NCBI GenBank assembly: GCA_015178975.1
Contig: WHVD01000034.1
Span: 620,001-684,000, forward strand
DNA length: 64,000 bases
Direction: 5' to 3'
Origin: Hysterangium stoloniferum
Taxonomy: Eukaryota; Basidiomycota; Agaricomycetes; Hysterangiales; Hysterangiaceae
Under the pieces are notes generated by a model. It worked only from the letters and a program-made list of their open reading frames with translations, ran no database searches and was not told the DNA's origin. Made by a program: the position numbers and the translations under genes. Shown here one piece after another: positions 1,276 through 64,000 of this stretch. Position 1 is the first letter of the stretch; each line of letters starts with the position of its first letter.

Positions 1276-4200
1276 CACAGACAAGTTTCGCGAACTCGTT
1301 GACCTTGCAGGTTACAAAGACGCGTTAGCCATTGTAATGAAGTATCGACATGGCCTCTTACTGAATATTCAGAACCAGGTTGCGACAATGGAGAACCACC
1401 CGAAGGACGACGACGAGCAAGGCTGGTACGACGCCGCTTCCCGCTTCGACCGAAACCGAAATGCAAACGAAATTTTTCGTTCAGCAGGTGTCACAACGCG
1501 ACCGGTCGCACTGAAACCTTCGACATTCCCTCGCGTCGTCCCCCCACTTCCCCCACATCCTACGTCGACACTACCCTCCTCTAGGCCGATCGACGCGATG
1601 GATGTTGATGCGACCAAAGGCCGGGGTCTTCCCTCAACACTCTGTTTCGAGTGTCGTCAGCCGGGTCATATCAGCCGTGACTGCCCTCGAAAACTACAAC
1701 GAATCCGCTCCCTACTTACTAGCCTTGATGAAGAGGGACAGGACATGGCCATGGACATCCTTCTTGCAGAAGTGGATGTTCGAATTGCCTGTAGTAGGGT
1801 GGCCAAAGCAAATGACTCTCCTCGAGGGGCTGATCTACAGCCTGTTTCGGGTTTTCCCAACTGCAGCGAGTGAAGGGTATGCCCTCGCTGCCACTTTCAA
1901 ATAGATTCAGTGTCCTCTCTGTTGATGATGTATGTACAGTTAATACATCAGAAGTTGAACCTCTGTTGAGTGAGGACACTGGAATTCAAGTCATACCTAA
2001 CCTACCCAAGTCTCCCTCAGTCCATTCACATCGTAGAAGACCAGTTTGGGAACGTTGTCTTCCAAAATCTCTCATTATTGCCTCAACGGCAACTGCCAAA
2101 TCATTACACCTAAAAGTTGAGCTCCAAACAACTGACACTGGTCTTCTCCAATCGACTCGTGCATTGGTTGATTGTGGTGCAACTGGTCTATTCATTGACC
2201 GAGACTATGTGCATGAAAACGGAATTGCCACATGATCACTCATCTACCCAATTCATGTATACAATGTCGATGGGACACCCAATGAAGCAGGTTCAATCAC
2301 CGAAGTTGCTGAGTTGGTCCTCTGCTACAAGGATCACTCAGAAAAGGCATTGTTTGCAGTCACCAAGCTTGGGAATGAATCCCTTTTACTTGGCTATACC
2401 TGGCTTCGGGATCACAACCCAGAGATCAATTGGCAGACACAAGAAGTCAAAATGACCCGTTGTAACCCACACTGTAAAGAGTGTAAAATCTCAACCCTCA
2501 AGGCACATGAAGAGATTAGATGTTTACAAGCTTGTAGAGATGCCCCTGCCCTAGTCTTCACATCTGAGGAAACAGAAGAGCCAATTCCTGATTTACTACC
2601 TGATCAGTCTGATGAGGTTGAAGACCAAATAGAGGACTTAATTGAAGATGGAGATTGGGTATTTGTCACAGTGCTGCACCCAGAACTGACTCCAAGTCAG
2701 ATTCGAGCATCTGCCACAGTGTCTCAGCGACTAGCAGAGGCTAGTGCAAGGTTTAATACACTGAGCCCAAAAGGTTTTTGAGACATTGTCCCTGAGTATC
2801 TCCACACCTTTGAAGATGTGTTCTCCAAGGAGTCATTTAATTCGTTGCCTGATAGAAAACCTTGGGACCATGCAATTGAACTAATCCCTGATGCAAAGTC
2901 AACCAATTGCAAGGTCTACCCTATGTCCCTCAATGAACAGACAGAGCTGGATATTTTTATTGCTGAAAACCTTGCAACTGGTCGGATACGTCCTTCTAAG
3001 TCACCCATGGCATCCCCAGTTTTCTTCATCAAGAAGAAGGATGGCTCCCTTCGACTTGTACAAGACTATCGTGCATTGAATGCCCAAACAATAAAAAATC
3101 GATATCCACTCCCACTTATTTCAGAACTGGTGAATCGATTTAAAGGGGCACGATATTTCACAAAACTTGATGTCAGATGGGGCTACAACAATGTTCGCAT
3201 TAAGGATGGTGATGAGTGGAAGGCTGCCTTCCGAACAAATAGAGGGTTGTTTGAACCCTTAGTCATGTTTTTTGGCCTCACTAATAGCCCAGCCACCTTT
3301 CAGACTATGATGAATGACATCTTCCGAGATTTGATTGCAGAAGGAGTTGTCTGTGTCTACCTGGATGACATCCTCATTTTCACCAGGACGCTTGAGGAAC
3401 ATCGGCGTGTTCTATTACTGGTTCTAGAGCGTCTTCACGAGTGTAAGCTCTACCTTAAGCCAGAGAAATGTGAGTTTGAAAAGACAAAGATTGAATACCT
3501 TGGTCTAGTCATCTCTGAAAACCAAGCGGAGATGGACCCAATCAAGGTGTCAGGTGTACGTGACTGGCCCACTCCTACCAGTCGGAAGGAGGTACAGGCA
3601 TTCCTTGGTTTTGCCAACTTCTATAGGCGATTCATATCGGATTTCTCCCACCATGCGCGACCACTGTTTGATCTCACAAAAAAGGAAACCAACTGGAGGT
3701 GGACCATGACAGAGGACAATGCCTTCCTTCTCCTCAAGGATCTGGTTACAAATGCACCAATTCTGACAATGCCTGATGATTCAAAACCATTTAGAGTTGA
3801 AGCTGACTCATCAGACTATGCCACTGGAGCAGTCCTCTCACAACAGCTGGATGATGGAAAGTGGCATCCTGTTGCCTTTTACTCAAAAAGCCTGTCAGCT
3901 GTTGAACGCAATTATGAGATCCATGACAAAGAGATGCTGGCAGTGATTCGTGCCTTGGATGAGTGGAGACATTTCCTAGAGGGGGCACAGCACTCAGTGG
4001 AGGTATGGACTGATCACAAAAACCTCGAGTACTTCATGTCCTCAAAAAAGCTAAACCGAAGACAGGCCCGATGGTCACTGTTCCTGGCACGTTTTGATTT
4101 CCAACTGCACCACCGACCAGGGCGCTCTATGGGTAAAACAGATGCACTCTCTCGCCGGTCTGACCATGGTTCAGGTGAAGGAGACAACTCAAACATCACT

Positions 4201-5870
4201 CTACTTAAGCCAGAGTTCTTTGCAATTCGAGCCATGGAGGGTGTATCAATACATGGGCCGGAACGTGAATTCCTCACTGCTATTCACCAAGGAAATGAGA
4301 AGGGTGAACAGGAGGAAGCGGTGATCAAGGCAGTGAAGGAACTCCGGAAATCTGGTGGCCGATCTATCAGATTAATGGAATGGTCAGAGGAAGATGGATT
4401 GGTGTTGTATCGGGGTAAAATATATGTCCCAACCGACCCAGAACTGAGGCATAGGATTGTGGAACAGCACCATGACTCTCAGGTTGCTGGCCATGCAGGA
4501 CGATGGAAGACTTTAGAGCTAGTAAGTCGCAACTTTTGGTGGCCAGGCATATCACGATATATAGGGCAATATGTCAAGACCTGTGACACATGTATACGCA
4601 CCAAGTTCCAGCGTCGAATGCCAATTGGGGAATTACACCCAAACACCACACCAGCAGACCGATGGGATACAACCAGTTTTGACTTCATAGTTGACCTACC
4701 TGAATCTCAAGGGTATGATTCAGTTATGGTAATTGTAGATCTCATGACAAAGCGGGGACATTTCCTGCCCACACACAAAACTGTTGACTCTGTGGGTGCA
4801 GCTTGGATCTTTTTTAAGGATGTGTGGAAGCATCATGGACTCCCACAGAGAATCATCTCAGATCGTGGATCACAGTTTGCAAGCCATTTCACTCGGGAAT
4901 TATACCGGCTCCTTGGGATTCAACCAGCCTATTCCACAGCCTACCACCCTCAAACTGATGGACAAACTGAACGAGTCAACCAAGAGCTTGAGACATATCT
5001 ATGGATTTTTGTGAATCAGCACCAATCAGACTGGGTTGACCTTCTCCCACTTGCAGAATTTCAATACAACAACCATATCCATGCATCTACACAACAGACA
5101 CCATTCATGTTAGACTGTGGACATCATCCACGAATGGGTTTTGAACCAAACCTTCAATCCAGCAAGGTGGAATTGGCAAATGATTTTTGAGATCGAATGG
5201 CTGAAACTCTTGAGGAGGCAAAAGCAGCATTGGCTAAAGCAAAGGACGAGATGACAAAGTACTACAACCGTTGGCGGACCCCAGCACCAAACTTCAAGGC
5301 AGGAGACCAAGTTTTCCTAGATGCCAGTGATATTCAAATGGCCCAACCCTCAAAGAAGCTTTCACACCTTCGGTTAGGGCCATTCAAGATACTTGAACAG
5401 GTCTCACCAATTGCCTATAGGTTGGAACTGCCAAAGTCAATGAATAGACTCCACCCAGTATTCAATGTGGTGAAACTGACACCAAAAATTGAGGATCCAA
5501 TCATCGGCTGCCATTCTCAACCACCACCAGATCCAATAGTAGTGGAAGGAGAGGTGGAGTATGAAGTTGAGAAGGTATTGGATAGTAGATGGAGATATGG
5601 GCGAATTGAATATCTCATAAAATGGCAAGGCTTTGGCATGGAACATAATAGCTGGGAACCAGGATATATGGTATTTGCTCCCACTCTGACAGCAGACTTC
5701 CACACACGACATCCAGAGGCAGTAACAACTCAGGGCCCTATTCGAGGATCAAGACAACCTCCAAACACCATAGTACGAGTGACCCAGATTCCACAGTGTC
5801 GAAAGGTCAAGCCTGGACTTTATTGGCAGCAACAGCATGTCGGGACGCCATATCTTAAAAGGGGGGGTGA

Positions 5871-6172
5871 TGTCAGGGGACAATCTCAAGTTTTCTAAAT
5901 TCATCCCTGACCTTCCTTAATATAGTCTCATAAGTCAAGGATAAGAGTACTTTGTTTTCATCACATTTTCAAACTCAGCTGCACCTTTAGTTAGTCACTC
6001 GCTAGCCGAGGATTCCTTAGACTTTTCTCTTTGGATTCCCTCTGCTAGGTAAGTAATAATGAACATTGTATGTATATAATAGATAGGTATAAAACTTACT
6101 TCGGATTCCGTCTGCTAGTGCCCCAACTCAGTCGTAGTGCGAGTCAGTGTGGTCTAGAGAGTTGCCCTTACA
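5871..6172 (+). repeat. Probable 3' LTR of G1
   Basis: It starts TGTCAGGGGA directly after a run of G preceded by A (polypurine tract, 5857-5868) and ends about 6172 with TTACA, giving TG...CA ends. The matching 5' LTR lies outside the window, so the right boundary rests only on the CA end and is approximate. The LTR of the related fragment at 11262 starts with the same TGTCAGGG. Confidence 0.55.
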
Positions 6173-11884: not shown

Positions 11885-12230
11885 TCATTAGAACCAAATT
11901 GGTGTTAGGAATGGGACAGAATGGAGCGGAGTCCAAATTGTGACAAAGCATAACCCATAACGGGAAATGGAGCAGGAGCGGAGTACAAATTGTGACAGGT
12001 CATTTGACTAAAATGGGAATGGGGCTCAATTAGAGTGGTGACGGGATTTTGAGCGGGGTCCAGTGACTGATGTGTGGGATGAAGACAGACATAGACAGAG
12101 ACGGAGTCTGGTGAAAGTCTGGTGACTGATATGTGTCGTAATGAGGTCAAATGTAACAAGTCTTGACATACGGAGTCCGTGTGGGAAATCCTATAAACAG
12201 ACAATTGGTGCGTGTAGGGCATGGTGGCAT
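11885..12230 (+). repeat. Fragment of LTR family B
   Basis: Matches the middle and 3' part of the family B LTRs (TTGGTGTTAGGAATGGGA start, CAATTGGTGCG near the end). It is cut at about 12230, where a different sequence begins. Confidence 0.65.
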
Positions 12231-12448
12231 ACAGACTTGTCTGCTATACCACACACAAATATAGCTGTTCACTCTACACACAGGAACCATGCCCTATAGC
12301 ACACAGCGGGGCCCATAACCTGTTAAAAGTGTAGAAAATGAATGGCCAGACTGGGGATTGAACCCAGGGCTTCTGCATATATAGCAGGGGTGTTAACCAT
12401 TACACCACCTGACCCTAGGAAGCACTGCTAGCATTACTCAATCTAACA
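12231..12448 (-). mobile_element. Miniature LTR element with a tRNA-like gene inside its LTR
   Basis: On the minus strand a 128-bp LTR-like unit runs from 12448 to 12321, with termini TGTTA...TAACA. It is followed at once by GGTTATGGGCCCC (12320-12308), a copia-type primer site complementary to the anticodon stem-loop of initiator tRNA-Met. About 75 bp of non-coding internal sequence follows. The LTR contains a tRNA-like sequence in the same orientation. Only one LTR is visible, because the other side is cut by the family B fragment. It has no coding capacity and resembles a TRIM. The assignment is inference from structure. Confidence 0.5.
12344..12414 (-). tRNA. tRNA-like sequence (UAU anticodon position, degenerate)
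   Basis: The 71-nt sequence folds into a full cloverleaf: a 7-bp acceptor stem (two G-T pairs), a 4-bp D stem with AATGGTTA loop, an anticodon stem with one C-A mismatch at 27-43, a 4-nt variable region and a perfect 5-bp T stem with TTCAATC loop. A box (TGGTGTAATGG) and B box (GGTTCAATCCC) match consensus. TTTT follows 4 nt after the 3' end. The anticodon loop is TATATAT, with A instead of the invariant U at position 33, so a functional tRNA is unlikely. It is better read as a Pol III promoter or tRNA relic. Confidence 0.6.
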
Positions 12449-62727: not shown

Positions 62728-64000
62728 TGTTGGCAATCTACCACCGCCGGTCATTCGAGTTTGAGTCTGAGTCTGAGTTTGGTCACTTCTGGTGACTTCT
62801 GTGTCCTTCTATCTACTATTCCAACAGGTTATGGGCCCCGGCTTCCACTAAATCTCCATCAATTTCACATAATTCCCTTATCAGTACTCCTATTCTGACA
62901 CCTCCTGAATCCTTCCATCCAACATCATGTCCTCTGGTCTTACCTCCATCTTCTCTAGTGCTCCTCTCCTTGTTGAGGACAACTACTATGAGTGGAAGAG
63001 AGCAATGAAGATGTGTTTCCTGGGTGCTGCCTTCACCTGGATCACTGATGATCCCAATGCTGTTGTCCCTACAGATAAGGTCACAGAGGATGGACAGGCA
63101 GCCTTCTTTATCTATTCTCGCATTTCTTTTCAACTCCAGTCAAAGGTGTATGACATCAGCTCTGGATTGGCATCCTGGAAGGCTGTTCATGCCTATTTTC
63201 AGAAGTCTACCATGGGTCGTAGGGTCAAAGCTGTAGAAGCCTTTATGGCAACTAAACAGGATCCTTCCAAACCTATTGAGGTGTATATCCAATCGATTCA
63301 GAAGTCTCGTCAAGTGCTAGAAGGTCTTGGAGTTCCATTCAGTGATGTTTTCATTGGTGACATCATTCTTGTTGGTCTCCATCCATCCTATCATACTGTT
63401 CACACTAGCATTCTTACTGCCAAGACTGAACCCTCACTTTCTGATATCATCGACATTCTCATTGGTTCCTCCACTTCAGTTATCGATATCAAAACTGAGC
63501 CGATCGAGACTTCATTTTTAGCCCGGGGTGGACGAACTACCAGAGGTGATTTACATTCTTCAGGTCAGAAATCAGAATATGGAGCTATTCCCAATCATTC
63601 TTTAGAGGATGATAAAGGGTATTGTTGGTGCAATCCTGCCAATGAAGGTCACTGTCATCGTTGTGGAAGACCCAATCATCATTCAGTCACCTCCATTTAT
63701 GATATGCCTTCTCACATCAAGGATTACATCATGTCAGGATCATCTCATCCTCCTGATCATGCCAATTCCACCCAAGTTCATTTTTCAGGTGGTGCTTACT
63801 CTGGTCTGGTTCATTCTTCACACTCTTCCCCTAGATTATCTCGAGCCCCTTCTCCTGAGAATGATTCACATCCCTTTGTTGTGCTTCGCACTTAGTTTTT
63901 ACATTTGGTGGGAGCTTCCAAGCTATTTTCTTTTTGTTCACTGTTTATATTTGGTGGAAGCTTCCTTTTATCTTTCTCATATTTCTTTGATTCGGTGGGA
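62728..64000 (+). mobile_element. Copia-like element with 99-bp LTR and stand-alone gag (continues past window)
   Basis: A 99-bp LTR, 62728-62826, has perfect inverted ends TGTTGG...CCAACA. It is followed at once by the primer site GGTTATGGGCCCC (62827-62839), complementary to the anticodon stem-loop of initiator tRNA-Met, as copia elements use. One open frame of 322 codons (62927-63895) encodes a copia-type Gag (YYEWKRAMKMCF, STMGRRVKAVEAFMA) with a Cys/His cluster (CHRCGRPNHH). Gag looks whole. No protease or RT follows within the remaining 105 bp. Two or three repeats of TTTGGTGG(G/A)AGCTTCC follow gag. Confidence 0.75.
63905..64000 (+). repeat. Direct repeats after the copia-like gag
   Basis: ATTTGGTGGGAGCTTCC near 63905, ATTTGGTGGAAGCTTCC near 63949 and GATTCGGTGGGA at the window edge, about 45 bp apart. 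They are purine-rich and could mark repeated polypurine-tract-like units. Confidence 0.7.

Follow-up and report, generated by a model that had tools for sequence, protein, structure and literature searches.

The closest described systems to the locus reported here are the Helenus elements (TRIMp3), known from Pucciniales and a few Agaricomycetes, which mostly carry a primer-binding site (PBS) for the anticodon arm of initiator tRNA-Met (iMet) and have 5-bp target-site duplications (TSDs), as set out in the main text of Kojima (2024; PMC10886601). In that text, Pol III transcription of Helenus is considered unvalidated, its helpers are inferred from the PBS and from internal similarity, and no indication of a helper is given for Cassandra (PMC10886601). 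The helper of a TRIM is mostly guessed from similarity. A literature search for Helenus together with tRNA, LTR and retrotransposon returned this one report (PMC10886601).

The window analyzed here is a stretch of 64,000 nucleotides from Hysterangium stoloniferum, and its first-pass annotation supposed that a fungal element corresponding to Cassandra but carrying a tRNA would be a novelty, a claim overtaken by the 2024 description of Helenus (PMC10886601, main text). The TRIM kind itself is known; the new part is a set of insertions with mismatched LTRs that join a copia element, P2, to a second tRNA-bearing family, B. The best explanation of the window feature, which we hold to be very probable, is a truncated Helenus-type TRIM, family A, with the life cycle proposed below.

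Structure of the copy in the window

The features of the window copy, and of the 99-bp copia LTR that is compared with it, are as follows.

12321..12448, minus strand: 5' LTR of Helenus-type family A, 128 bp, consisting of a 34-bp U3, the tRNA-like part, and U5
12343..12414, minus strand: tRNA-like sequence, 72 nt; ARAGORN tRNA-Ile(TAT); Rfam RF00005 at 46.8 bits (cut-off 29 bits)
about 12397-12407, minus strand: A box of the tRNA-like sequence
12354-12364, minus strand: B box of the tRNA-like sequence
12335-12338 and 12325-12328 (within 12325..12338), minus strand: two T4 runs at LTR positions 111 and 121, candidate weak Pol III terminators
12308..12320, minus strand: PBS GGTTATGGGCCCC, directly after the LTR, complement of the host iMet anticodon arm
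12232..12307, minus strand: remnant of the 155-bp internal region; BLASTN with the 411-bp element L006 gives 217 bp at 98.6%, ending at 12232
62728..62826, plus strand: 99-bp copia LTR, followed at 62827-62839 by the same PBS as in the window copy and by a different internal region

The LTR has the ends TGTTAG...TTTTAACA on the minus strand and is 99.2% identical to the LTRs of L006, with one base in 128 different (BLASTN). The copy breaks off at 12232, 89 bp into the internal region, and its 3' LTR was not found in the 64-kb window by BLASTN with the L006 element; in the window, family A is represented by a copy truncated at the 3' side. The first-pass annotation had described a 128-bp LTR-like unit on the minus strand with the PBS directly adjoining, a TTTT a few bases after the tRNA-like part, and a PBS matching that of the 99-bp LTR at 62728, and these descriptions are borne out; its cloverleaf is recovered as a tRNA-like part by both ARAGORN and Rfam, at 72 nt rather than the 71 nt given. 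A frame at 62909-63895, after the 99-bp LTR, contains the gag domain PF14223.

Two other repeats were observed in the window. The broken copy is abutted by a piece of an abundant repeat (11893-12234), which has at least 39 other places at 90-94% among the best 40 of 4187 candidates scored, and in apparently the same repeat, by eye, sits a P2/B insertion on C68. A gypsy-like retroelement with RT, RNase H, integrase, and chromodomain lies at 2782-5898.

Family A across the genome

In the 111-Mb assembly to which the window belongs, at least 42 matches to family A were obtained, the best 40 of 603 candidates being scored. A complete copy comprises a 128-bp LTR, a 155-bp internal region, and a second 128-bp LTR, in total 411 bp, within the TRIM limit of about 1 kb, and has no coding region; a purine-rich AAGGGAG, ending two bases short of the 3' LTR, was recognized by eye as the PPT. 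Among 26 distinct two-LTR copies, which are the best matches to the window copy and lean toward young copies, perfect 5-bp TSDs are present in 25, the one exception being L080, and the LTR pair is identical in 22. This sample leaves out L086 (3' end cut), the single-LTR rows L001, L005, and L092, and L049, L051, and L056, loci counted already as L091, L090, and L006; it includes two LTR-internal-LTR-internal-LTR dimers of 694 bp with TSDs (L082 and L083). Because the flanks of the copies, compared over up to 280 bp, show no match to one another, the copies represent separate insertions. Family A is young. These two-LTR copies support the earlier claim of a non-autonomous LTR element, and the check proposed with it turned out in its favor, since the tRNA-like LTR and the PBS stay joined between 5-bp duplications in 25/26.

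By structure family A is a Helenus-type TRIM, set beside the named Helenus families by description: it combines two LTRs, a PBS, a PPT, and 5-bp TSDs with a tRNA-derived A/B-box sequence inside the LTR, and the PBS is complementary to the iMet anticodon arm and also precedes a copia gag in the same genome. Junctions of an LTR end with internal region A, allowing up to three mismatches, number 75, C290 at least having a foreign LTR. Against these 75 LTR-A-like junctions stand 79 starts of internal A, so that a small number remain whose LTRs are of another kind or decayed. No other element with the internal region of A was seen by eye in the 71 bases printed for each of the first 30 zero-mismatch PBS loci. 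Judged by eye, two rDNA copies in the same assembly (L009 and L010) show numerous C/T and G/A differences of the kind left by RIP or methylation decay; the 5.8S/ITS region on L009 is presumably agaricomycete.

The primer-binding site and family B

Three places in the genome read GGGGCCCATAACCCCGAAGTCCCAGGATCGAAACC and match the pattern GGGGCCCATAACCC...GATCGAAACC; we take this sequence to be the anticodon and T arms of initiator tRNA-Met, and the PBS is the complement of its first 13 letters. The junction AACAGGTTATGGGCCCCG, with at most one mismatch, occurs 794 times in the 111-Mb genome versus none for a reversed-pattern control. A B box followed after 22-52 nt by the LTR end and PBS has 125 exact occurrences (control 0), and by our own count the 100 listed of these divide into 58 of A type and 42 of B type. 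The association of the tRNA-like LTR with the PBS is not due to chance. The first 30 zero-mismatch PBS loci in contig order comprise, by eye, 4 of family A, 4 of family B, three of which belong to a single array, and 22 with other LTRs.

Family B, which coexists with family A, has a tRNA-bearing LTR of 251 bp and an internal region of about 66 bp, and its tRNA-like part matches the Rfam tRNA model at 47.8-48.6 bits. Between the D loop and the end of the LTR the two families align at 64/84 columns, with no other strong match reported by BLASTN. Tandem arrays of family B units were observed at L057-L059 (C4) and at C534:48047-49769, the listed sites of the latter being spaced alternately by 318 and 356 bp. 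The first 18 letters of the tRNA-like part of LTR-B are, by eye, common to a host tRNA-Cys(GCA) prediction (L054 and L022), a hint of where that part may have originated.

Insertions joining copia P2 and family B

In the proposed life cycle, Pol III would start at the tRNA-like A and B boxes of the 5' LTR, read through the weak T4 runs there, and stop at the same runs in the 3' LTR, with the tRNA-like segment forming the repeated R. The RNA would then enter particles of copia elements that share the iMet anticodon-arm PBS, where reverse transcription would be primed by iMet tRNA, and integration would generate 5-bp duplications. During reverse transcription the plus-strand strong-stop DNA, which consists of U3-R-U5-PBS, pairs with the minus strand at the complement of the PBS. 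Were this DNA supplied by a co-packaged element with the same PBS, the resulting insertion would have a 5' LTR from that element and keep its own LTR at the 3' end.

P2 is a copia element with PF14223 gag and RVT_2 domains and an LTR of roughly 352 bp, TGTTAAAAC...TTTAACA, in which Rfam gives no tRNA match in the copy tested (L070). A query composed of the P2 LTR end and internal B identified at least 16 full-length places, a lower bound from the best 40 of 297 candidates scored. When the composites C2, C259, C35:1081672, and C534 and the place C441:338545, whose 5' end is not resolved, are left out, 11 simple hybrids with the order 5' LTR P2, internal B, 3' LTR B are obtained; in all 11 the start of LTR-P2 was read and its last 100 bp were matched. 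Perfect 5-bp TSDs flank 8 of the 11, and the eight are all different (CTGTC, AAAGA, TTTAT, CCTGG, GATTT, TTACA, ACGCG, and ATCCA; the hybrid with TTTAT has one substitution in the LTR end), while C543, C514:299883, and C68 have none. Shuffling of the flanks never reached 8 TSDs in 100,000 trials, and the 5' flank of one hybrid matches the 3' flank of another in 0/110 pairs. The 3' LTR-B pieces fetched in full, from eight simple hybrids and the composite C534, match the Rfam tRNA model in 9/9 cases; for three of the eight TSD-bearing hybrids (C182, C35:945621, and C514:409156) the reading covered the final 31 bp at the 3' end, and LTR-B is known there by its end and place.

Because perfect 5-bp TSDs frame them, the eight hybrids were integrated with two different LTRs. 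These insertions fit a plus-strand strong-stop transfer between molecules at the shared PBS. Their structure gives good support to the idea that B and P2 cDNAs shared particles and exchanged plus-strand strong-stop DNA at the PBS, and, from sequence alone, it points to P2 as the probable helper copying B. The earlier suggestion that the window element is copied by copia machinery is likely, the direct support from mismatched-LTR insertions applying to the sister family B.

We consider it unlikely that the hybrids arose by ectopic recombination or gene conversion in chromosomal DNA at the shared LTR end and PBS, without shared particles. Ectopic recombination is the better reading of the hybrids that have no TSD, namely three of the 11 simple P2/B hybrids and the reverse-type C14 and C256 described below, and the presence of tandem and composite arrangements also agrees with it. 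However, a crossover would join the flanks of two loci and lose the TSDs, which are perfect in 8/11, and gene conversion would require the left crossover to fall, at eight loci, within the few bases common to LTR-P2 (TGTTAAAAC) and LTR-B (TGTTAGAAA). A single replicating family with one copia LTR and one tRNA-bearing LTR, in place of independent recombination events, is improbable as well. Although the P2/B places L107, L111, L113, and L115 have common LTR-B haplotype letters at informative sites, as copies of one family might, each of the five TSD-bearing hybrids with a fully read 3' LTR-B has a haplotype of its own. In canonical reverse transcription the R regions of the two ends must match, and the two LTRs come out alike; a hybrid family of this kind is at odds with it. 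Strong-stop transfer between co-packaged molecules is preferred: the foreign 5' and own 3' LTR that it predicts is the structure found, with integration marks in 8/11 in this direction and 1/3 in the other.

Reverse-type, composite, and family A junctions

In the reverse type, LTR-B precedes P2 coding sequence. Six such junctions were found, two with a longer part of gag and four sharing a gag deletion, and the three simple places followed to the 3' LTR all have that of P2 (3/3). One of these three (C35) has a TSD, AGAGA, in a GAGA-rich flank of low complexity, and C14 and C256 are without a TSD; a single frame runs open across the two overlapping pieces read in C35 and likewise in C14, with equal phases. 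The composite C2 reads LTR-B, copia, LTR-P2, internal B, LTR-B, with the low-complexity TTTTT at both outer ends, and in C35:1081394 and C259 the P2 LTR is followed by internal B. L096, L097, L100, and L101 are P2 copies with a common gag deletion and LTR-B at the 5' end, possibly a second non-autonomous lineage.

Family A is joined to other LTR elements at several places. On C135, nine LTR-end letters of the L068 type precede internal A, as predicted beforehand and with 0 mismatches, and are followed further on by LTR-A and an internal region 99% like L068 over 190 bp; the gag of L068 is PF14223. On C290 an LTR 96% like L063 over 82 bp precedes internal A, and on C58 another LTR precedes internal A and an internal region 83% like L063 (85 bp) follows LTR-A; L063 is called an LTR element only, with no coding region in the part examined. 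C533 has internal A, LTR-A, and a third internal region with a frame that is copia-like by eye, and this 50-aa frame has no Pfam match at E <= 1. From the shared PBS and from these junctions, read at their inner joins, we infer that copia elements may be the helpers of family A.

The tRNA-like segment and its putative promoter

Among 29 copies of LTR-A seven positions vary, 1/72 in the tRNA-like part and 6/56 outside it (Fisher p 0.043), a contrast that is marginal and involves sites that share ancestry. One variable position outside the tRNA-like part abolishes the first T4 in 13/29 copies. Both A and B LTRs carry T4 runs. Of 35 distinct flanks of host tRNA genes, taken from 44 tRNA predictions that are mostly tRNA-Lys copies, 29 have T5 or longer as the first T-run downstream, 5 have T4, and 1 has none. 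Because TATA-like repeats stand near -30 in LTR-B and no TATA-like box is found in the sequence of the 34-bp U3 of A, Pol III appears likely for family A, and both Pol II and Pol III appear possible for family B. TATA-like sequence also occurs in 10/38 distinct upstream flanks of host tRNAs versus 2/42 in a control taken 400 bp upstream. C112 987097-1219099 and C68 744746-852232 hold numerous scattered tRNA-Lys(CTT)-like genes, often near-identical and each with a 22-nt intron, which represent either a tRNA-derived repeat or a large gene array.

There is little reason to expect that the segment is maintained because it yields a working tRNA. Folded in isolation, the 72 nt of A have a cloverleaf as their MFE structure (z -2.18), and the Rfam match covers the whole model, both as expected of a working tRNA; yet the cloverleaf is absent from the fold of the whole LTR-A, and the MFE fold of the segment of B is not a cloverleaf. 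A U is expected at position 33 of tRNAs, but an A, read from the fold, occupies it here, and the working tRNA was rejected as the main role. A SINE has no LTRs and inserts by target priming, and among the loci examined no tRNA-like part was seen by itself between duplications of its own. A chance insertion of an ordinary tRNA gene or SINE into or next to an old LTR, as the good scores of the tRNA-like sequence on its own (ARAGORN, Rfam) might suggest, is hardly credible given the 125 exact B box, LTR end, and PBS places (58 of the 100 listed being family A) and duplications that lie outside two LTRs with a PBS in 25/26, and the SINE or stray tRNA relic was likewise rejected.

Discussion

An insertion that has two different LTRs and a TSD would be direct evidence that particles were shared, and any genome can be searched for such cases. 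These insertions also illustrate a way in which non-coding and coding elements may pass a Pol III-type promoter module to one another. As a tentative joint reading, which we put forward with somewhat less than even confidence, TSD-framed mismatched-LTR insertions would be a general record of the helper: B would ride in P2 particles, A would be joined promiscuously to at least three LTR elements through the shared iMet PBS alone, and the coding P2 would gain a tRNA-bearing 5' LTR with the frame open where read (C35 and C14), so that the tRNA promoter would be an exchangeable module.

Searches on plus-strand transfer, LTR swapping, and TRIM helpers gave, among the matches listed, no mismatched-LTR insertions for a Pol III-type TRIM in titles or abstract openings. 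LTR swapping between autonomous and non-autonomous elements has reportedly been described in soybean (Du et al. 2010, by title), which would likewise be an exchange of LTRs between a non-autonomous element and its helper, in a plant. Recombinants of Onsen likewise give new insertions with LTRs of mixed origin, but, in the portion of Sanchez et al. (2017; PMC5668417) used here, recombination takes place within one family and is mostly consistent with the first template switch. The three-LTR dimers L082 and L083 resemble the template-switch complexes of Triticeae, which have an internal LTR and flanking TSDs and are attributed to a change of template between co-packaged RNAs in the part of Sabot and Schulman (2007) consulted; the partners there are near relatives with like LTRs, whereas those described here have unrelated LTRs, one of them tRNA-bearing (PMC1950507).

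The Cassandra TRIMs of plants likewise hold a Pol III gene inside the LTR, but theirs is 5S rRNA, whereas families A and B carry tRNA-like sequence (PMC10886601, main text); in the LTRs of A and B Rfam gives only tRNA, and no 5S rRNA, at the gathering cut-off. The main text of the Helenus report contains no word beginning with chimer, hybrid, or swap (PMC10886601). Families A and B are like Helenus, as that text presents it, in being short non-autonomous LTR elements with an A/B-box tRNA-like sequence in the LTR and a relation to copia, in the presence of several families per genome, and in forming tandem arrays (LTR-11_DR in Helenus) (PMC10886601). Unlike in the Helenus report, the helper is read here from mismatched-LTR insertions.
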